Source: Bacteroidota bacterium
Lineage (GTDB): Bacteria; Bacteroidota; Kryptoniia; Kryptoniales; JAKASW01
Reading direction: 5' to 3'
NCBI GenBank assembly: GCA_021796055.1
Contig: JAJYOS010000140.1
Span: 1 to 10,475, forward strand
Length of the DNA stretch: 10,475 nucleotides
The number at the start of each line of letters is the position of its first letter. Position 1 is the first letter of the stretch. This document shows, one piece after another, positions 2,370-10,475 of this stretch. Under the pieces are notes generated by a model. It saw only the letters and a list, made by a program, of their open reading frames with translations, ran no database searches and was not told the origin of the DNA. A program made the translations under genes and the position numbers.

Positions 2370-2850
2370 TAGCCGATTGTCAGGCGGTGTGGCCGGTGAT
2401 CAACTCCCGCTAAGCGGCGTGCCGGCCTAACCGCGGTGGGGAAAGTTAACTTAACCTGAAGAAGATGGTGCGGTGCCGCGATTCGAATTGTGACGCACCT
2501 CCCGTTCGCGTCCGCGTGAGTGGCTGCATGCCGTTCCATATCAGGCAGAGCGGTCGCGATGAACTTGTTTCAGCATTTGGTTCTCTTCGTTTTTGGATCG
2601 CGATACAAGCCTCACCTGGAACGCGCCGCTCCGAGTTTCGAAGTTGCAGAGAGGCGACTTCGGGGTAGGCCTCTGGTTAACTCACCTCTGCACGAGAGGA
2701 CTTAGGGGTGTGTCGGAAAACTTCGTGAAAGGCCGAAACATCTGTGTACGCTCCATGGCTGATAAACATTGTCATTGGCCTTTGATTGGATGACGCGAAC
2801 AAATCCGAGCCCGGTCTGTAATCTTCTCGTTTCCCGGTTCACTTTCTCTA
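2370..2850. other. Intergenic region after the kinase gene, no convincing gene
   Basis: No reading frame here has a good ribosome site and a protein-like sequence; the short frames on the + strand (for example 2465-2668 and 2520-2705) are rich in Arg, Ser and Cys and look non-coding. Visible structure includes a weak GGCCGG/CCGGCC inverted repeat (2391-2396 with 2422-2427, 25-base loop, no T-run), a perfect 10-base palindrome AAGTTAACTT at 2443-2452, and the AGAGG/CCTCT repeats at 2650-2699, listed separately. I see no clear rho-independent terminator for the kinase gene. Confidence 0.5.
2650..2699 (+). repeat. Alternating inverted repeats AGAGG / CCTCT (mutually exclusive hairpins)
   Basis: Four short arms lie in the order AGAGGC (2650-2655), GCCTCT (2669-2674), CCTCT (2685-2689), AGAGG (2695-2699). 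Arms 1 and 2 can form a 6-bp stem with a 13-base loop, and arms 3 and 4 a 5-bp stem with a 5-base loop. Because each AGAGG can pair with either CCTCT, other pairings are possible. No U-run follows, so this is not a standard terminator. It lies upstream of the promoter of the NusG-like gene, so it would only be transcribed by readthrough from the kinase gene. Function unknown. Confidence 0.4.
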
Positions 2851-2879
2851 TTGACTTACTCTTCAGAGATAATTAGAAT
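2851..2879 (+). promoter_or_regulatory. Sigma-70-type promoter for the NusG-like gene
   Basis: The -35 box TTGACT (2851-2856) and -10 box TAGAAT (2874-2879) each match the consensus at five of six bases and are separated by the optimal 17 bases. The predicted transcription start is near 2886. That would give the NusG-like gene a leader of about 139 nt and transcription independent of the upstream kinase gene. Called by eye. Confidence 0.6.
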
Positions 2880-2888
2880 CAAGACAAT

Positions 2889-2903
2889 CCTGGTCGGACC
2901 GGG
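2889..2903. promoter_or_regulatory. Operator-like dyad just downstream of the predicted transcription start
   Basis: The 15-base sequence CCTGGTCGGACCGGG is a near-perfect dyad: CCTGGTC and GACCGGG around a single central G, with one mismatch (T opposite G). It sits at about +4 to +18 relative to the predicted start of the promoter at 2851-2879. A repressor bound there would block initiation or early elongation. With a one-base centre it cannot fold as a full RNA hairpin, so a DNA-binding site is the more natural reading. No candidate regulator is encoded in the window. Confidence 0.35.
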
Positions 2904-3012
2904 TGGAGCTTGATATGCTGTCTGTTCACCTGGTTAACCGAAGTCGGGATCGATGGTTCTAACTCCAAACTGTTCCGCATGGGAATCGGCGCTTTGCGGT
3001 ATCAAAAATACA

Positions 3013-3017
3013 TGAGG
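3013..3017 (+). promoter_or_regulatory. Ribosome binding site that fixes the GTG start of the NusG-like gene
   Basis: TGAGG lies seven bases before GTG at 3025. It supports the GTG over any internal ATG, because the conserved tryptophan and the first strand of the NGN domain begin within seven codons of this start. Confidence 0.6.
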
Positions 3018-3024
3018 TTGAAAA

Positions 3025-3594
3025 GTGGATACTCAGAAAAGGTGGTGTGTGATCTACGTGAAGTCGCGACACGAGAAGATCGCAGAGTCTGACATCAACA
3101 GGCGGGGAATCGAAACTTATCTTCCGATGAAGACTGAGCTGCACCAGTGGAGTGACCGTAGAAAGTGGGTTGAGGTTCCGCTCTTTTCCGGATACGTATT
3201 TGTTAGAATCTCGGTGACGGATTTTAGTTGTGTATATCTTGCAAACGGGTTCGTGAAATTTGTGAGCCTGAACGGCAAACCGAGCATAGTTCCGGATGAG
3301 CAGGTAGAAGCGGTTAGAAGAATAGTCGAGAGCTATGGCCGCGACATCGAGGTTATCGATGGAGACTACATCGGCATGAACGCCGAAATCATCGCAGGTC
3401 CTCTTCTCGGATTGCACGGCGAGATCATTGATCTGATGAACAGAAAGAATTTCGTGATCAGAATAGAAGGACTTGAAAAGCTGCTTAGTGTGAAGGTCCC
3501 GGCGGGCGCGATCAAGATCACCGGAACGGTACTGAACCCCGCGGGGCGAGGGGATTTCGAACTCCACACCCTCGGACCGCGCACCCGTGCTTGA
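3025..3594 (+). CDS. NusG-family transcription antiterminator, UpxY/RfaH-like
   Basis: A 189-aa NusG paralogue. Proteins of this type bind RNA polymerase and suppress pausing and termination in specific long operons, commonly capsule, LPS or exopolysaccharide operons. The N-terminal NGN domain (about residues 5-105) starts with RWCVIYVKSRHEKIAES and continues through the family pattern of a Tyr-Leu-Pro segment (TYLPM), a charged strand and PLFSGYVFVRI. A KOW-type domain follows at about 118-175, with the GPLLGLHGEI turn at 125-134. The C-terminal tail, about 15 residues, is not recognisable. Length fits UpxY-type specialised paralogues. The GTG start has TGAGG seven bases upstream. It has its own promoter candidate (2851-2879) and follows a BY-kinase gene, a common partner in polysaccharide loci. 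No glycosyltransferase genes are visible here, and the next gene is a secreted giant protein behind a separate promoter, so its target operon is unknown. It is not likely to be housekeeping NusG, which usually sits with secE and ribosomal protein genes. Confidence 0.9.
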   Translation: MDTQKRWCVIYVKSRHEKIAESDINRRGIETYLPMKTELHQWSDRRKWVEVPLFSGYVFVRISVTDFSCVYLANGFVKFVSLNGKPSIVPDEQVEAVRRIVESYGRDIEVIDGDYIGMNAEIIAGPLLGLHGEIIDLMNRKNFVIRIEGLEKLLSVKVPAGAIKITGTVLNPAGRGDFELHTLGPRTRA

Positions 3595-4009
3595 CCTGGA
3601 TGCTTTGGACCGCGGCAAATGCGTAAAGTGTGGTGTGATTATTTTACCTGGTGCCTCGGCCCGCGATTAGCGCCCCCCTTCCTTTATAAGCATGAGAGCC
3701 TCGTGTAAAGTCTTGGGTCTGCCGTCATTCTCCATGGATCCCGCCTTGAGTCGTCCTTTTGTTGGTTCTCTTTCGCGCTGGTGCCCCCCTTTTGCTCTTC
3801 AGGAAATATTTTCCAATTTCTTCTTGTGTGCTCAACCTCACTCTCCTGAAAGAAAAGCCGACACACCTCTTGCAGTTTGAATGTCTTTTTGCGATACTTA
3901 GAACAAGTTCATGGATAAGCATCCCGAAAATCAGGTGTTACCCCGCGGCACCGGACGGGATAGCGTGGAACATCCATGTGACAATCCTCAAAAAAAGTTG
4001 AAAAAAGGC
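3595..4009. other. Intergenic region between the NusG-like gene and the promoter of the giant gene
   Basis: I see no gene: the short frames on either strand have no good ribosome site and no recognisable protein pattern. Weak structures are GTAAA/TTTAC (3623-3627 with 3643-3647) and a tight dyad GGAAA-TAT-TTTCC (3802-3814) followed by an AT-rich stretch. Neither is a clear terminator, because there is no strong GC stem with a U-run. The right end becomes A-rich, with A-tracts at 3990-3996 and 4001-4006, and leads into the promoter at 4010. Confidence 0.5.
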
Positions 4010-4038
4010 TTGACAAATTGCACCATACAGGTTAATAT
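3990..4038 (+). promoter_or_regulatory. Strong sigma-70-type promoter with upstream A-tracts, for the giant secreted protein gene
   Basis: A consensus -35 box TTGACA (4010-4015) is followed after exactly 17 bases by TAATAT (4033-4038), which matches TATAAT at four of six positions. Immediately upstream are two A-tracts, seven A at 3990-3996 and six A at 4001-4006, starting 11 bases apart. That arrangement can bend DNA and can act like an UP element. Predicted transcription start is near 4045, giving a leader of about 295 nt before the ATG at 4341. Called by eye. Confidence 0.6.
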
Positions 4039-4044
4039 TTGCAA

Positions 4045-4330
4045 GTCGATAGGAGATGAAGCCAGTTAAAATACTACTGGTAATTTGAGAAAATGGGATG
4101 CGAGATCTCTCTTTCTCAGTCAAAAAAAAGATGCGGCGTATGTGAGTTGTCATTGAAATCTAAGGAGATGGAACACTTCATTTCAGACTAAGATGGAACT
4201 TGATACAAAGAGTTGTGCACCATTAGGGAATACAAATTTTAGTAACGAAGGTAAAGAACGGGCTACCGGGATTATGCGTCTCTCCAAAGGTTTTCCCGTT
4301 TGTGGAATCATTTGAAATAGTAATCATCAT
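4045..4330 (+). other. Long structured 5' leader of the giant gene
   Basis: If transcription starts near 4045, the mRNA has a leader of about 295 nt. Small hairpins visible are CCAGT/ACTGG (4062-4066 with 4076-4080), TGAGAAA/TTTCTCA (4086-4092 with 4112-4118, enclosing the palindrome GAGATCTC) and TGAAAT/ATTTCA (4154-4159 with 4180-4185). Two tiny frames begin where AGGAG directly abuts ATG: ten codons at 4056-4088 and seven codons at 4168-4191. I do not recognise a known riboswitch class and see no intrinsic terminator. Stabilising stems or a translational control region are possible. Confidence 0.35.
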
Positions 4331-4337
4331 GGGAGGT
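4331..4337 (+). promoter_or_regulatory. Ribosome binding site of the giant gene
   Basis: GGGAGGT lies just before the ATG at 4341, with three bases between. It is the only strong Shine-Dalgarno match near the beginning of the reading frame. It favours this ATG over the in-frame ATG at 4386, which has no such site. Confidence 0.65.
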
Positions 4338-4340
4338 ACA

Positions 4341-7300
4341 ATGTTAGAAAACCGATTCAGTTTCAAGCGGTTCAGCCGACTGACCATGTTGCGGAGTCTC
4401 GCGATGAGCGTCTTCGCCGTTTTAGTTGCGGCGAGTTTCGCGATGGCTCAAGGTCTCAATACGGTGTACGTGGACGTGACAAACGGCTCGAACACATATA
4501 CCGGTGCGAACCCGACGAATAGTCCGGCGGGCACGGGACCAAAAGCAACTATCGATGCAGGACTGACTGCTCTGGCGAATAACGGGACACTTGTTATTGC
4601 TGCCGGCACATATAATGGTGGTGATAATGCCGGTGGTAATATCGATATCAGCACCGCGAATTACGCCAATCTTACGTCCGGGTTGACAATCCAGCTCAAG
4701 ACCCTGAACAGCAATACCATTGTAAGTCTAACTGCTGGTACGTTCACTTTCGAAGTGAACGCCGGAACCCTGACCTTTACTGAGGCCAGCGGAACGGAGT
4801 CCATCCAGATTGCGACAGGCGTTATGACCCTCGGCTCTGCGACAGGACCAATAAGCAGTAATGTTAGCATCGGCGTATCAAGCGCTGTTCAGTTGACAAA
4901 TGCAAACGATCTTATCACGATGCATGCCTCGTCGGCTTTCACAAATCAGGCACCATCGATTGGCGGCAACAACGTTAGCCTTGTGTATTCAGACAACGGA
5001 AACGTTAATGCCGGACCGGAAGCCAACTATGGGAGTTATGGCACGGGCACTATATCGGTGAGCAAGACTTCAGGCACATCAGTCACTTTCCCTTATGCAA
5101 TATCTAAGATTGGTGGCATAACCATCAACGGCGGCAACGCAACATTCGGCCAGTCCGTTGCTATGGGGACGAACCAGATCCTTAATGCTGGAACGGGCAC
5201 CGTGACTTTCTCGGCACCGGTGAACCTCAATGTTGCCACTGGCGCTGAAGGAAGTGTCTTCAATCAAGTCGCGGGCAATATCACTTTCAACGGCGCGGTC
5301 ACTTGGTCAGCCAATGGGGTGGGAGCTCAGGCTCTCGGCGGTTTTATGGCTGAGAATGGATCAAGTGGCAACCTCGTTTTTAATTCAACAGTTACGTTAA
5401 GCAACCCTGGCGGAGGTACTCAAACTGTCACCGCAAGCAATGACGCGGCAGGCGTGCTGACAATAGGCAATGTATCTGAAACGAATTTCACGCTGAATAT
5501 AGTGAACAATAATGCCAGCGGCACTTTGAATCTTGCCGGCGGTACCATCGGCGGGCTGAGCAATAACGGTGGCGCCAACACAGATGTCGCCAACATTACT
5601 GGTCCATTGACGATAACCGGCCAGCTCACAAACTCCGGGACCGTCAACCTTGGGGCTAATACAGTCACACTTTCTGGAACCGGCATCGGGCACACTGACA
5701 ATGGCACAATCACTTCGAGTTCTGTCGGTGGTTTCAGCGTTACCGGTGCGGCGGTGACCCTGGCGGGAACAGGAAAGCTTCCAAACGTCACGATTGCATC
5801 ATTATCAGTTACGACTTTCACAGGAACCTTGACGGCCGCAAATGTTCTTGTCACTGGCGAGATGGATGTTCCTAATGGAGCGATAATCGGTGTGCAGTCC
5901 TTGACAGAGACAGGCAACATCGTTCTCGGCGGCGGTGCGAGCGGTGAGCTCGACGTCGCGGGAGATTTCAACAGGACTAGCGGTACTTTCACAGCTGGAA
6001 CCGGCTCTCTCTTGAAGTTCAACGGCACGACGGCACAGGCTGTCAATAGCGGCCCGAACTTCCAGGTCGCCAGCCTTGAATTCCTGAATACTCATGCGAC
6101 TATAACCCTTGGAGCTTCGATCCGTGTCTCCGGCGGCGTTACTATCGATGCCAGCACGAATGTAGCGTTGAGTACTCTGAATATCATTTTGAACGCTGCA
6201 GGTGCCAGCATGAATAATCTCGGATCCTACACTGCCACTGGCGGCGGCGGCGTGATCCTCGGCGGCGCAAATATTGTTTCCGGTGGCGTTGCTGCAAATG
6301 GCATAACTATCGGCGGCAGTGGTACGTATTCATATATCACTGTCGACGTGGGCAGCGGCAATACTGCCAACGTTACATCGAACGCCGACTTCAACGGTGT
6401 TTTAACTTTGAATTCCGGTACGCTGCAGGTAAACGCCACATTCGACTTCAGTCCGACGGGAAATTCGGCGAGCGTTATTCGTAATGTCGTTCCCGGTAAC
6501 GGTGCTTTCCTGGCAGCGGGTGGTGCCTTTGGCACCTTCGACGCAGCCAACGTGAAATACGATTTAACTTATATCGGCAATCTTCCTGGCCCGCTCAGCG
6601 TAGCCACGGGAACTACCGAATTCAATGCGGCGAATGTCCGTACTCTGACAATCTCGACTACGACATCCATTCTGACTCTCACGAGCAGCACCGCAGTGAC
6701 CATCAATGGCGCGTTGAACCTCAGCAAGAACGCGCTGTTCGCGTTTGATGGTGTTGCACCATACAACGTTACGATCGACAGCTCGTTGAATGTTGCAACC
6801 GGTGCAGTGCTTAGCGGCGGTTCAGCGGCGAATACTATAACATTAGCCGGCAATAACGACACGAGCACTGTCGCGGGTACAATCACTTGTGCCAGTCTCC
6901 TTACTGTAACCGGCACAGGCGATGTCCTGAACGGTTCAGGTATCACTACTGATGCCAACACGATTGCAAACCTCGACTTCGAACCGACCGCGAATGGTTC
7001 GACCTTTATGTCCAACAACCTCGAAGCCATCACAGGCAATGTGACGATTGAAAACACGAGCGTCGCAACCGGAGCAAGTGCAACCATCGCAATGAATTCG
7101 GTCAATGCCGCATTAACCGGCAACTTGACCGTAGGAAATGCAGGTGCATCACCGACAGCGTCTGTTTCGATTATGGGGTCCACCATTTCGAACCACACCG
7201 GCAACGTCGTTGTGGTCGGCGGAATCCTGACTTACACCCGCGGCGGAAACAGTGACGTCCTTAACGGTACTGTGACTATGACCGGTGGTACCCTCACTCT

Positions 7301-10300
7301 TGGAAGTAACCTTGAAGTTACAGGCCAAACCACACAGGGCGCGGGTAACTTGGCTATCGCGAGCTTCAATTACACTCAAGACGGTCTTGGCGGAGCGAAT
7401 GATTACAACAGGACCGGAGCCGGAACTGTCACCGGTACCGGCGCATTGGTGTTGAACGCTAGCGCGCTTAACACGGTGACATTGACGCCCGGCACATCCT
7501 TGACAGTACCGAACCTGGTATTCAAGAGCGCAGGCGCGGCGGTTCTCGTCAACAATTCTGTCACTGTTAGCGGTGCCATCACGCATACATCTGGTAACGT
7601 GAGCATAGTTGCCGGTACGCTTACGTTGTCTGGTCCAACGTATACTGCGGCAAGCACGGCGGGAACTGTTGCCGGCGCGGTTGCGATGACAGACAGCATT
7701 GCTACCGTCACGGCTGCATTGAACTATACACTTGCAACCGGTTTGACAGTCAACTCTAAGGGCAGTGTAACGTTCGCATCCAACAACGCTACAGCGAGAA
7801 CATTTACGGTTACGACGCTGACCCAGACTGCAGGTGGAATCAACCTCGGTATCAATAACCTCCAGATCATTGGCGGGGTGGGTGCATTCACACGCGCTGC
7901 CGGAGGCTGGACGATGTCGAGTGGTGCTTTGCAGTTTAATAATGCATCTCTGACTTTCAGTCCCGGGAAGGGCTTCGCAGTCGATAACCTCGACATCATG
8001 GCGAACGCCTCGAAAGCCACCACCGATACTTTCACGGTCAACAAGTATCTGACTCTTGGCGGCTCACTCACGATCGGAACGACCGGCTCGCTTGCCATGG
8101 GCGACAGTTCGACAATCGAGCGACAGGGTAATGCCGACGCACTCGACAAAGCCCTGATTTTCGGCGCTACTTCGATAAACCTCATTTATTCGACGGCAGC
8201 AACCCCGACTATTAATTCCGGGTTTGAAGTGCCTTCCACAAACATCATAACCAACGTTACCGTATCAACGGGCGGCGCCGGTGTAGCACTTCAGAAGAGC
8301 CTTCAGGTCAACGGAACATTGACGCTCGCAGATCCGCTTTATGCTACGACAGGTAACGGTGCGGCGTCCGGAGTCAAAGTAACTATGGCTTCCGGTGCAA
8401 CCCTCGTCCTACAAATCAACGGGACTACCGCCCTCGATCAGAACCTGACTACGCTCGGGCCCATCAATATCGTATATGATGGAGCTTCCAGCACGAGCAC
8501 GCGGGAGCTCGGATCAATCTCCGGCGGTTCCCACACTGCAGTTACAAGCAACGTAACTGTCCAAACTACCGTTAAACTCGATGCCGGCTTGACCGTTGGT
8601 GGTGTGCTGACGCTCCAGGGTGGAAATCTGGATATCAATGGTAGCCCGCTTACCGTGCTCAGCGATGTCGTTCAATCCGCTGGCGCAGGCTTCTTTGTTA
8701 ATTCAGCAGTCGGCGCAGCGCCTGTAACTTTTGGCGGAAGCGCGAACACGATGCTGACATTGAAAGCTAACCAGACAGTTCCTGCATTGGTCAATATCAC
8801 AATCGGCAAGACCTACGCGGACAGGAGTGTCACTATCTCTGGTGGCAATCTAGATTTTGCAACGAACGCTGCAACACTTTATCTAGACAAGGGTGTACTG
8901 GCGACCGGAAGCAACATGGTTTTGTTGGCCCAGAGCAACAACAGCAGCCAGCCGACCCAGGGCTTTGTAAAGACAGACACCAGCTACATCTATGGTACTG
9001 TTTCTAAGCTTTTGCCCTACAACGCACCGCTAACCGTTAGCAACGTTCAGTATCCTGTCGGCAACAATCCGATGGACAGCACTGGCGCAGCCTATCGACC
9101 GATGACGTTGTTCTTCACACAGGCGCTTCCGTCTGGGGTGAACCTGGCTGTAACTTTTGTCGACCGTAGTCCGACCGGATCCAACGGATTCCCGATTGCT
9201 GACGGTTCGCAGCAGTTGAGCGGCTATCCAAGCTTCTACTGGTACCTGAAACCTGATATCAGCTTCTCGAACGCGTACGTCTACAACCTCGACGGTCAGG
9301 CGCAGGGTTACGCGGGCTATACTCCGTCACAGATCCAGAATCTCCGTTTCATCGCGAGAGACTCAGGAAGCGTAGCAAACCCGTGGACAATGCTCGGCAC
9401 CGACGCGAACTATCAAAATGCGACCCTGGCTGACGGATCGCCTGACATCAGAGTCAGCGGCGTCACCGGTCACATTTCGTTGAACGGCACAATCTTCACC
9501 TATGGTCAGCCAAATGTGGCACCTCCGGCATTGACAGTGAGTGGTACAGTCCTGTATGACAAGACTGGTGCTCCGTTCTCGGGCGCGACTGTAAAGATTA
9601 CGCCCACCGCGGGTGGCACAGCGTATACTGGTACGACGAACGCCAGCGGCGCATATAGCGTTGCCAACGTTCCCACCGGTACGTACACTGTTACTGCAAC
9701 AACCAGCGCAGCGTGGGGTGGTCCGAATGCTACCCAGGCTCTGTTGGTAGTCAAAGACTTCCTCGGAACCTACCATCCTGATGCTTTGCAGGCTCTTGCA
9801 GCAGATGTAAACAACAGCGGCAGCGCAGACGCAACGGATGCTTTGTTGATCGTGCGTCGTTGGGCTGGTCTGACCAACTCCTTCGCTAAGGGTGATTGGA
9901 TCTTCACAACGGATTCTGTCAATGTCGTAACCGACACAACGATGAATATCTCCGGTATTATGACCGGCGACGTCAACAGCAGCGTAACGCCTGCATCGAC
10001 TGTAAAAGGACAGAAGAATACGGTAGCGTCCGTAAGCTCTTCCGTCGATGTTAACAGTGATGGCGTTCTCAACGTAAGTCCGTCGGGATCTTTTGAAGTA
10101 CCGGTAACCGCAGCGAGCGCAATGCAGGTTGGTGCGTACTCTCTGCAGATCAAATATCCGTCCGAACAAGTAAAGTTCGTCGGAGTAACCGGCCCATATG
10201 CTGATCAGGCAGTCGTAAACGCAGCAGACGGCTACGTAAGGATTGCTTGGTTTGATGCAACCGGCGGTAAGAATCCAATCAATCTGAACGCAAACGATGA

Positions 10301-10475
10301 ACTCGTTTCGTTGAAGTTCTCGTCTCCGAAGCCGCTTGACAAGAATGCGAACCTGTCGTTTGAAGTAGCTTCAGGCTCGGCTCTTGCCGGACCTTCTGGA
10401 GAGATACTCAATGCGACACTCAATATGCCGGGCAGCGTGAAGGCTTCCCTCCCGAGCAAGTTCGCGTTGAACCAG
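4341..10475 (+). CDS. Giant secreted beta-solenoid surface protein with dockerin-like and cohesin-like domains; probable T9SS cargo, 3' end outside window
   Basis: Open for 2045 codons to the window edge with no stop; function unproven, most likely a cell-surface adhesin or matrix protein. The signal peptide has a basic start (R5, K9, R10, R13, R18), a hydrophobic core and a likely cut after AMA36. Residues 40-95 resemble the opening of DUF1565/pectate-lyase-like beta-helix proteins (VYVD at 42-45, PKATI at 67-71, AAGTY at 87-91). About 130-1515 is a degenerate beta-solenoid rich in Thr, Gly, Asn, Ala, Val and Ser, with recurring LTV-G-LTL and SGTL patterns. About 1520-1727 is an aromatic-containing globular segment (QYPVG, FYWYLKP). 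About 1731-1790 is a carboxypeptidase-regulatory/Cna-B-like domain (SGTVLYD, GAYSV, PTGTYTVTA). About 1793-1882 is dockerin-like, with a loop at D1822-N1824-S1826-G1827-D1833. About 1910-2032 is cohesin-like. The last residues, LPSKFALNQ (2037-2045), normally come directly before NYPNPFNP in T9SS type A sorting domains, so about 70-90 residues are probably missing. Only one cysteine (C850) is seen. It has its own promoter and leader. Confidence 0.9.
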   Translation, partial: MLENRFSFKRFSRLTMLRSLAMSVFAVLVAASFAMAQGLNTVYVDVTNGSNTYTGANPTNSPAGTGPKATIDAGLTALANNGTLVIAAGTYNGGDNAGGNIDISTANYANLTSGLTIQLKTLNSNTIVSLTAGTFTFEVNAGTLTFTEASGTESIQIATGVMTLGSATGPISSNVSIGVSSAVQLTNANDLITMHASSAFTNQAPSIGGNNVSLVYSDNGNVNAGPEANYGSYGTGTISVSKTSGTSVTFPYAISKIGGITINGGNATFGQSVAMGTNQILNAGTGTVTFSAPVNLNVATGAEGSVFNQVAGNITFNGAVTWSANGVGAQALGGFMAENGSSGNLVFNSTVTLSNPGGGTQTVTASNDAAGVLTIGNVSETNFTLNIVNNNASGTLNLAGGTIGGLSNNGGANTDVANITGPLTITGQLTNSGTVNLGANTVTLSGTGIGHTDNGTITSSSVGGFSVTGAAVTLAGTGKLPNVTIASLSVTTFTGTLTAANVLVTGEMDVPNGAIIGVQSLTETGNIVLGGGASGELDVAGDFNRTSGTFTAGTGSLLKFNGTTAQAVNSGPNFQVASLEFLNTHATITLGASIRVSGGVTIDASTNVALSTLNIILNAAGASMNNLGSYTATGGGGVILGGANIVSGGVAANGITIGGSGTYSYITVDVGSGNTANVTSNADFNGVLTLNSGTLQVNATFDFSPTGNSASVIRNVVPGNGAFLAAGGAFGTFDAANVKYDLTYIGNLPGPLSVATGTTEFNAANVRTLTISTTTSILTLTSSTAVTINGALNLSKNALFAFDGVAPYNVTIDSSLNVATGAVLSGGSAANTITLAGNNDTSTVAGTITCASLLTVTGTGDVLNGSGITTDANTIANLDFEPTANGSTFMSNNLEAITGNVTIENTSVATGASATIAMNSVNAALTGNLTVGNAGASPTASVSIMGSTISNHTGNVVVVGGILTYTRGGNSDVLNGTVTMTGGTLTLGSNLEVTGQTTQGAGNLAIASFNYTQDGLGGANDYNRTGAGTVTGTGALVLNASALNTVTLTPGTSLTVPNLVFKSAGAAVLVNNSVTVSGAITHTSGNVSIVAGTLTLSGPTYTAASTAGTVAGAVAMTDSIATVTAALNYTLATGLTVNSKGSVTFASNNATARTFTVTTLTQTAGGINLGINNLQIIGGVGAFTRAAGGWTMSSGALQFNNASLTFSPGKGFAVDNLDIMANASKATTDTFTVNKYLTLGGSLTIGTTGSLAMGDSSTIERQGNADALDKALIFGATSINLIYSTAATPTINSGFEVPSTNIITNVTVSTGGAGVALQKSLQVNGTLTLADPLYATTGNGAASGVKVTMASGATLVLQINGTTALDQNLTTLGPINIVYDGASSTSTRELGSISGGSHTAVTSNVTVQTTVKLDAGLTVGGVLTLQGGNLDINGSPLTVLSDVVQSAGAGFFVNSAVGAAPVTFGGSANTMLTLKANQTVPALVNITIGKTYADRSVTISGGNLDFATNAATLYLDKGVLATGSNMVLLAQSNNSSQPTQGFVKTDTSYIYGTVSKLLPYNAPLTVSNVQYPVGNNPMDSTGAAYRPMTLFFTQALPSGVNLAVTFVDRSPTGSNGFPIADGSQQLSGYPSFYWYLKPDISFSNAYVYNLDGQAQGYAGYTPSQIQNLRFIARDSGSVANPWTMLGTDANYQNATLADGSPDIRVSGVTGHISLNGTIFTYGQPNVAPPALTVSGTVLYDKTGAPFSGATVKITPTAGGTAYTGTTNASGAYSVANVPTGTYTVTATTSAAWGGPNATQALLVVKDFLGTYHPDALQALAADVNNSGSADATDALLIVRRWAGLTNSFAKGDWIFTTDSVNVVTDTTMNISGIMTGDVNSSVTPASTVKGQKNTVASVSSSVDVNSDGVLNVSPSGSFEVPVTAASAMQVGAYSLQIKYPSEQVKFVGVTGPYADQAVVNAADGYVRIAWFDATGGKNPINLNANDELVSLKFSSPKPLDKNANLSFEVASGSALAGPSGEILNATLNMPGSVKASLPSKFALNQ
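4728..8885 (+). repeat. Degenerate protein-level repeat region (beta-solenoid) inside the giant gene
   Basis: About 1385 codons carry strands that recur roughly every 20-50 residues, in forms such as LTVTG, NGTLTL, TGNVT, SGGVTI and GTLTLGSN, with turns rich in Gly, Asn and Ser. The repeats are clear in protein character but diverged at DNA level; I do not see long identical nucleotide copies. This is the pattern of filamentous-haemagglutinin or autotransporter-like solenoids. Repeat borders cannot be set reliably by eye. Confidence 0.6.

Follow-up and report, generated by a model that had tools for sequence, protein, structure and literature searches.

In cellulosomes, primary and anchoring scaffoldins are assembled through type I and type II pairs of cohesins and dockerins. 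A cellulosome-like complex has been described from Candidatus Stygibacter (Cloacimonadota), for which excerpts of the report place dockerins on hydrolases, peptidases and one halomucin-like protein (PMC8542988). Non-cellulosomal cohesin-dockerin proteins occur in Archaeoglobus and in anaerobic methanotrophic archaea (ANME), and excerpts of their description state that, before the ANME genomes, archaea with cohesin or dockerin domains had no multi-cohesin scaffolds (PMC9012536). Here we describe a locus from a Bacteroidota bacterium of the Kryptoniales (assembly GCA_021796055.1, contig JAJYOS010000140.1), analysed in a stretch of 10,475 nucleotides that is called the window throughout. The window holds most of a gene for a giant protein of 2129 residues (4341..10475, + strand, with the last 84 codons and the stop beyond it), called from its open reading frame (ORF) and codon statistics. 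The giant bears a dockerin and a sorting tail of the type IX secretion system (T9SS), and the next gene encodes cohesins. It is probable, judging from sequence, that the giant's dockerin docks on the cohesins of the next gene's product in a T9SS-exported, cellulosome-like surface assembly, the binding itself being a prediction.

The giant opens with a signal peptide that was delimited by eye (residues 1-36, 4341..4448), with AMA ahead of the likely cut. The body that follows (residues 38-1560, 4452..9020, borders by eye) is predicted to be an all-beta solenoid. An AlphaFold2 (AF2) model of residues 38-737 has a pLDDT of 85.2 and a pTM of 0.77, and its matches in the PDB are beta-helix adhesins and lyases, but weak ones, with Foldseek E values that are not significant. 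Matches to Metallo-beta-lactamase and PCC_BT in the body fell far below cut-off and were dropped. A conserved domain with FPVG and NPW motifs (residues ~1561-1728, 9021..9524), recognized by invariant residues in the homologue alignment and without a family match in the Pfam scan, leads to the first part of a CarboxypepD_reg (transthyretin-like) domain (residues 1730-1789, 9528..9707; PF13620, 1.7e-11, profile positions 1-56 of 82). Next come a type I-like dockerin (residues 1790-1846, 9708..9878; PF00404 near cut-off), the last strands of the transthyretin-like domain (residues 1853-1876, 9897..9968; placed by the AF2 model, structure alignments and a profile test) and the giant's own cohesin-fold domain (residues 1903-2036, 10047..10448), all on the + strand. 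The T9SS type A sorting tail starts at 10452..10475 (+) and continues to residue 2129. In the full protein it scores 40.2 bits against a cut-off of 23 for TIGR04183 and 36.8 against 27 for PF18962, and a sorting domain over the curated cut-off marks the giant as a predicted T9SS type A cargo. The final 84 residues beyond the window hold most of this tail, and the next gene suggests the likely mode of action.

The dockerin apparently sits inside the transthyretin-like domain. Transthyretin-like structures align almost whole over model residues 132-276 (78 of 80 residues of carboxypeptidase D at a root-mean-square deviation of 1.7, and 78 of 81 and 79 of 82 in two others). The dockerin helices lie between, at 198-242, which places the domain's last strands after the dockerin. 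Removal of the dockerin stretch moves the end of the PF13620 match from profile position 56 to 78 (of 82) in the giant, and from 56 or 57 to 76 in two homologues. The gains are modest (1.3, 4.0 and 5.9 bits in the three proteins examined, without control deletions), and the sister family PF13715 scores 0.8 bits lower in the giant after the deletion. The inserted-type module travels as one unit, since 10 of its 12 matches in 197 genomes of the class run from model position 2 or 3 to position 149, in a search that scored no more than about 20 candidates in each genome.

The presumed partner is encoded immediately downstream. Extension of the assembly to the right, which the first-pass annotation had proposed along with gene calling, places the end of the giant's frame 84 codons on and, 95 bp further, the start of a gene for a 698-residue protein with three cohesins (PF00963, 1.2e-37, 129.7 bits, 3 stretches) and a T9SS tail. 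The Pfam scan gave no carbohydrate-binding module in it. Within this genome (G000), both dockerin matches and all seven cohesin matches are confined to two loci. The second locus (G000:C59, L042:5272-9865) encodes a cohesin-dockerin protein, cut by the contig end, and then a two-cohesin protein. It is of the canonical type, as defined below, and its scaffold also bears a LamG-like lectin domain. No enzyme family was seen in the incomplete ORF of its dockerin protein, the only other one in the genome. Export by T9SS is consistent with the presence of an SprA gene (2.3e-43, with SprA_N over cut-off).

Pairing of the two domains was surveyed in 61 genomes (this one and relatives), with 42 dockerin matches in 41 ORFs set against 144 cohesin matches. 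Another cohesin-bearing ORF lies at most 10 kb from 19 of the 41 dockerin ORFs, where a rough estimate gives 0.64 as expected, and from 11 of 16 in the own genus. In all 19 cases this neighbour is on the same strand and downstream; two of these pairs are in the own genome, and two in the sister species G005 have a scaffold gene in common. Of the 41 dockerin ORFs, 18 bear a cohesin themselves, 25 have one either within the ORF or in a neighbour, and 16 have neither. The gap from dockerin gene to cohesin gene is 7-95 bp in 15/15 loci measured, these loci having been selected for such neighbours. At L126, L128 and L131, other dockerin giants are built on Beta_helix (PF13229) bodies, with fn3, Big_2 or HYDIN-type Ig domains present in the scaffolds that accompany them.

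The dockerins split into an inserted type, as in the giant, and canonical ones, and the cohesins beside them divide in the same way. In a tree built on the 64 cohesins of 21 partner proteins, the 30 that lie beside inserted-type dockerins form one clade (100/100), which is recovered in 100% of 200 bootstrap trees. Cohesin domains were found in 21 of 22 partner proteins, with none passing in that of L135. Inserted-type pairs entered this tree largely through contigs of equal size, by which seven coincidences, including the window's pair, were found between 43 giants (after three glycosidase-like or short-match hits were dropped) and 43 cohesin proteins (the first 43 of 86 cohesin matches). A second tree, of 86 rows, gathers the canonical-type cohesins in a clade to themselves (35 rows, 100/100). 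The 45 cohesins on the scaffold side of inserted-type loci fall outside this clade, intermixed, and a third clade (100/99) unites the C-terminal cohesins that six inserted-type proteins carry themselves. This tree excluded three divergent cohesins and one long branch of the 64, as well as overlapping matches (one third-gene cohesin of L151), and own cohesins of canonical dockerin proteins were limited to that of C59.

Co-occurrence follows the same division. Among the 197 genomes, the inserted-type module is present in 9 (E up to 1e-12), its cohesin type in 7 (E up to 1e-9) and both in 6 (Fisher 7.7e-9, or 1.4e-7 without G000). In all six genomes with both, an inserted-type dockerin ORF has such cohesins downstream of it and in the same orientation, and four of the six also carry inserted-type cohesins elsewhere or in the same ORF.

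At one position the two types differ as a set between sister species. The sister species G005 holds a syntenic locus (L134), in which the promoter region at 3977-4075 is conserved (99 bp, 88% DNA identity). This region contains a promoter-like site, TTGACA-17-TAATAT (4010..4038, +; 10 of 12 matches; two overlapping sites found against 0.9 expected). The last 95 residues of the scaffold are 84% identical, and the FAD oxidase that follows is 67% identical over 449 residues. Between these conserved flanks the body differs, being a 1367-residue ORF without a match to the giant's body at E up to 1e-3. The dockerin of G005 is canonical, and its cohesins group with the canonical type of other species and of the C59 locus. 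The reverse case is a homologue, P0003, whose body is much like the giant's, 12 blocks up to residue 1800 being 51-68% identical, and whose dockerin module is different.

Both types meet in two relay operons, L151 and L154. In each, a canonical dockerin gene is followed by an adaptor gene and then by a gene with three inserted-type cohesins; the middle gene encodes two canonical-type cohesins and an inserted-type dockerin. All three genes carry T9SS tails, and the first is cut by the end of the stretch in both operons. The middle dockerin of L151 is of the inserted type by 60.9 against 22.8 bits. Adaptor scaffolds in cellulosomes work in just this arrangement.

The coupling in relatives also appears to serve enzyme-like proteins. 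In G136, a cohesin protein with a T9SS tail is preceded by two tail-less inserted-type dockerin proteins, which bear a CotH kinase and a DMFA2_C domain respectively, and a third inserted-type protein, encoded elsewhere, is a polysaccharide deacetylase; L105 holds another such deacetylase. Six of seven inserted-type proteins of L105, L149, L150, L155, L156 and L152 lack a T9SS tail match, that of L152 having one. Tail-less cargo beside a tailed cohesin protein is expected if docking occurs and the cohesin protein is the anchor. At L105:13640-15301, L149:4241-9241 and L150:4835-6742, the modules are C-terminal on tail-less polysaccharide deacetylases, a CotH-kinase protein and a DMFA2_C protein, suggesting that the inserted module is mobile. 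At L152 (G084:C99), the gene for an inserted-type dockerin protein with cohesins of its own precedes two cohesin genes, one for a small protein with a single cohesin and one for a very long scaffold, whose 2582-residue frame holds at least six cohesins of the inserted type.

In short, the giant would leave the cell by way of Sec and T9SS and stand on its surface as a long rod of beta-solenoid. The giant's dockerin, held within the transthyretin-like domain, would plug into the three cohesins of the T9SS-tailed neighbour scaffold, such that up to three rods could be mounted per scaffold. We infer the physical binding, this stoichiometry, the surface location and an adhesive or matrix role from the arrangement of genes and domains. 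In related bacteria the two-gene cassette would recur with other bodies, the coupling would be of at least two types that apparently do not mix, and in two relatives an adaptor scaffold would link these types into a chain of two steps. More broadly, the chances seem about even that the class builds modular, cellulosome-like surface structures through T9SS. In this reading, two or more orthogonal dockerin-cohesin pairs, one of them with its dockerin inserted in a transthyretin-like domain, would be swapped between loci as matched sets and chained by adaptors, and giant rods and, in some relatives, enzymes would be plugged onto common anchors.

The alternative that survives best, although we consider it unlikely, is that dockerin and cohesin are inherited modules of T9SS cargo, shared by duplication and without docking, the giant alone being an adhesin or stalk. 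Several observations fit this alternative or weigh against docking. Both proteins carry T9SS tails, such that each could be anchored separately, and the tail family has at least 150 matches in the genome, some of them fragments (150 of 183 candidates scored), which indicates a large cargo repertoire. The giant's dockerin scores near the Pfam cut-off of 22.9, at 20.1 bits when the whole protein is scanned and 23.5 bits in the search of the genome. Its loops were read by the calcium-ligand pattern of dockerin F-hand repeats, and in this reading of the sequence the first is degenerate, without calcium ligands, and the second intact, short of a two-repeat dockerin. Neighbouring cohesin ORFs are absent for 22 of the 41 dockerin ORFs, 16 of which also lack a cohesin of their own, and the surveyed genomes are related, making their counts non-independent. 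The labels of six of the seven inserted-type pairs in the 64-cohesin tree are indirect, drawn from the equal-sized contigs, direct adjacency having come from the survey of 197 genomes. Five of the 12 inserted-type modules lack matching cohesins near by at the cut-off applied (G136:C8, two in G159, G161 and G011), as does the deacetylase of L105, and inserted-type cohesins occur without a dockerin neighbour at L093, near a contig end. The middle dockerin of L154 is of the inserted type less clearly, by 34.7 against 23.3 bits, and the match to a PorU-like sortase (252.7 bits) is below the curated cut-off of 420. However, duplication predicts neither the fixed gene order nor a syntenic locus whose dockerin and cohesins change type between species. 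Nor does it predict the relay operons, in which type follows type, or the tail-less dockerin proteins beside a tailed cohesin protein. Docking on the neighbour scaffold stays the preferred reading.

A clearly less probable arrangement is a head-to-tail fibre of giants, in which each dockerin would bind the C-terminal cohesin-fold domain of the next molecule, with the tri-cohesin protein as base or branch. The giant does carry both domains, and its own cohesin fits the inserted-type cohesin model (66.8 bits), with no canonical-type match listed. However, the own cohesins of inserted-type proteins group apart from scaffold cohesins, in the clade of six rows noted above, and may therefore be a fixed companion fold rather than sockets. 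The least probable proposal is a polysaccharide-binding or lyase-like rod acting with the upstream exopolysaccharide genes, given that no catalytic family in the giant passed cut-off in Pfam or NCBIfam, that the Foldseek matches are not significant, and that neither the upstream kinase nor UpxY was found beside the G005 gene (~2.2 kb of upstream DNA compared) or the G036 gene (~9.5 kb).

Those upstream genes comprise a Wzc-like chain-length and tyrosine kinase gene with a Tyr-rich C-terminus (54-2369, its start preceding the window) and a gene for an UpxY-type NusG paralogue (3025..3594, +; NF033644, 126.5 bits, cut-off 100). The latter is flanked by 655 and 746 bp (2370-3024 and 3595-4340) without a convincing gene or an Rfam match. 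Regulation of the giant gene by UpxY was considered and is not supported, since no UpxY was found beside the syntenic G005 locus or the G036 locus within the upstream lengths given above. No tandem DNA repeats, tRNAs or Rfam families were found in the window.

The gene structure on which this account depends is that of the first-pass annotation, which had read a single frame of more than 2045 codons from ATG 4341, encoding a very large secreted protein with coherent domains to its end. The frame is indeed stop-free up to base 10475 (2045 codons in the window), and it closes, with zero internal stops, within a 119 kb contig (G000:C35); about 85 stops are expected from composition in the 2045 codons of the window, and the chance of none is ~1e-38. 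The ribosome site that had been claimed is GGGAGGT at 4331-4337, immediately 5' of the ATG, and the claimed signal peptide and domains are those assigned above. The proposed Pfam search of the translation returned the CarboxypepD_reg, near-cut-off dockerin and T9SS tail matches. The protein is very probably secreted, as had been interpreted.

Two objections had been raised to this frame in advance, a frameshift within it and codon statistics in favour of the opposite strand, where open frames of 200-270 codons had been noted. The antisense ORFs exist, with 208, 211 and 268 codons at 5420-6046, 6569-7204 and 9363-10169. Codon log-odds, for which 15 genes of the window and the flanking DNA served as training set, prefer the sense frame in all four blocks of 500 codons scored (the final 45 codons excluded), at +0.10 to +0.14 per codon, and are zero or below for the antisense frames (-0.71 to 0.00). 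Antisense genes were rejected on these statistics and on homology, the conserved product being the sense protein. A frameshift is very unlikely because of the codon statistics and of full-length homologues, among which P0003 (2222 residues) aligns along the whole length at 59% overall identity. The 24 homologues matched by residues 40-900, P0003 included, are 1966-2564 residues long, in a search that admits only proteins 0.55 to 1.75 times the query length. Two segments of the giant used as queries gave 25 and 24 relatives (E up to 0.001, query excluded); these lists overlap in part, and a few members match one domain only. In a whole-protein search that scored six candidates per genome, one body-level relative besides the own gene (G036) is among the matches listed, and nearly all others listed match the T9SS tail with or without the preceding domain. 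A scan for the tail motif QNYPNPFN, of which the best 80 of 568 places were listed, finds carriers of such tails, not orthologues; they include Ignavibacteria and Melioribacteraceae metagenome-assembled genomes among several phyla.

A narrow search of open-licence literature (noncellulosomal cohesin-dockerin systems, T9SS dockerins, Archaeoglobus, Ignavibacteria, Bacteroidetes sorting domains and beta-helix adhesins) found no description of the giant/scaffold arrangement, and gave no matching papers for an inserted dockerin or for Melioribacter. To our knowledge, the archaeal non-cellulosomal cohesin-dockerin systems are without T9SS. The long predicted beta-solenoid body resembles those of EtpA, HMW1 and antigen 43, which are two-partner-secreted or autotransporter beta-helix adhesins. 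Unlike them, the giant has a T9SS tail and no two-partner-secretion or autotransporter domain in the Pfam scan; the two-partner secretion domain is not among its Pfam matches at E up to 10, although HMMER filters drop weak matches. The Ca. Stygibacter complex, as far as excerpts of its description go, is alike in its dockerin proteins, its large cohesin scaffold and a C-terminal domain for attachment to the cell's own surface, and differs in that here the dockerin is on a giant solenoid, the scaffold gene is adjacent and co-oriented, and the types are exchanged (PMC8542988).

The dockerin proteins and multi-cohesin scaffolds are shared with cellulosomes, and so, in two relatives, is an adaptor with cohesins of one type and a dockerin of the other. 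The differences are that T9SS tails take the place of S-layer homology (SLH) or sortase anchors, that the dockerin is apparently inserted in a transthyretin-like domain, and that neither protein of the pair has a known enzyme domain or carbohydrate-binding module in the Pfam and NCBIfam scans. Because of this last difference the giant/scaffold pair is not a cellulosome, yet it is cellulosome-like in its predicted couplings. The exchanged types at a syntenic locus and the relay operons are sequence evidence for matched specificity, which would explain how large surface structures vary while one anchor stays, and could provide new orthogonal coupling pairs. Cohesin-dockerin coupling, known mainly from cellulosomes, seems here to serve giant T9SS surface proteins as a connector of general use.

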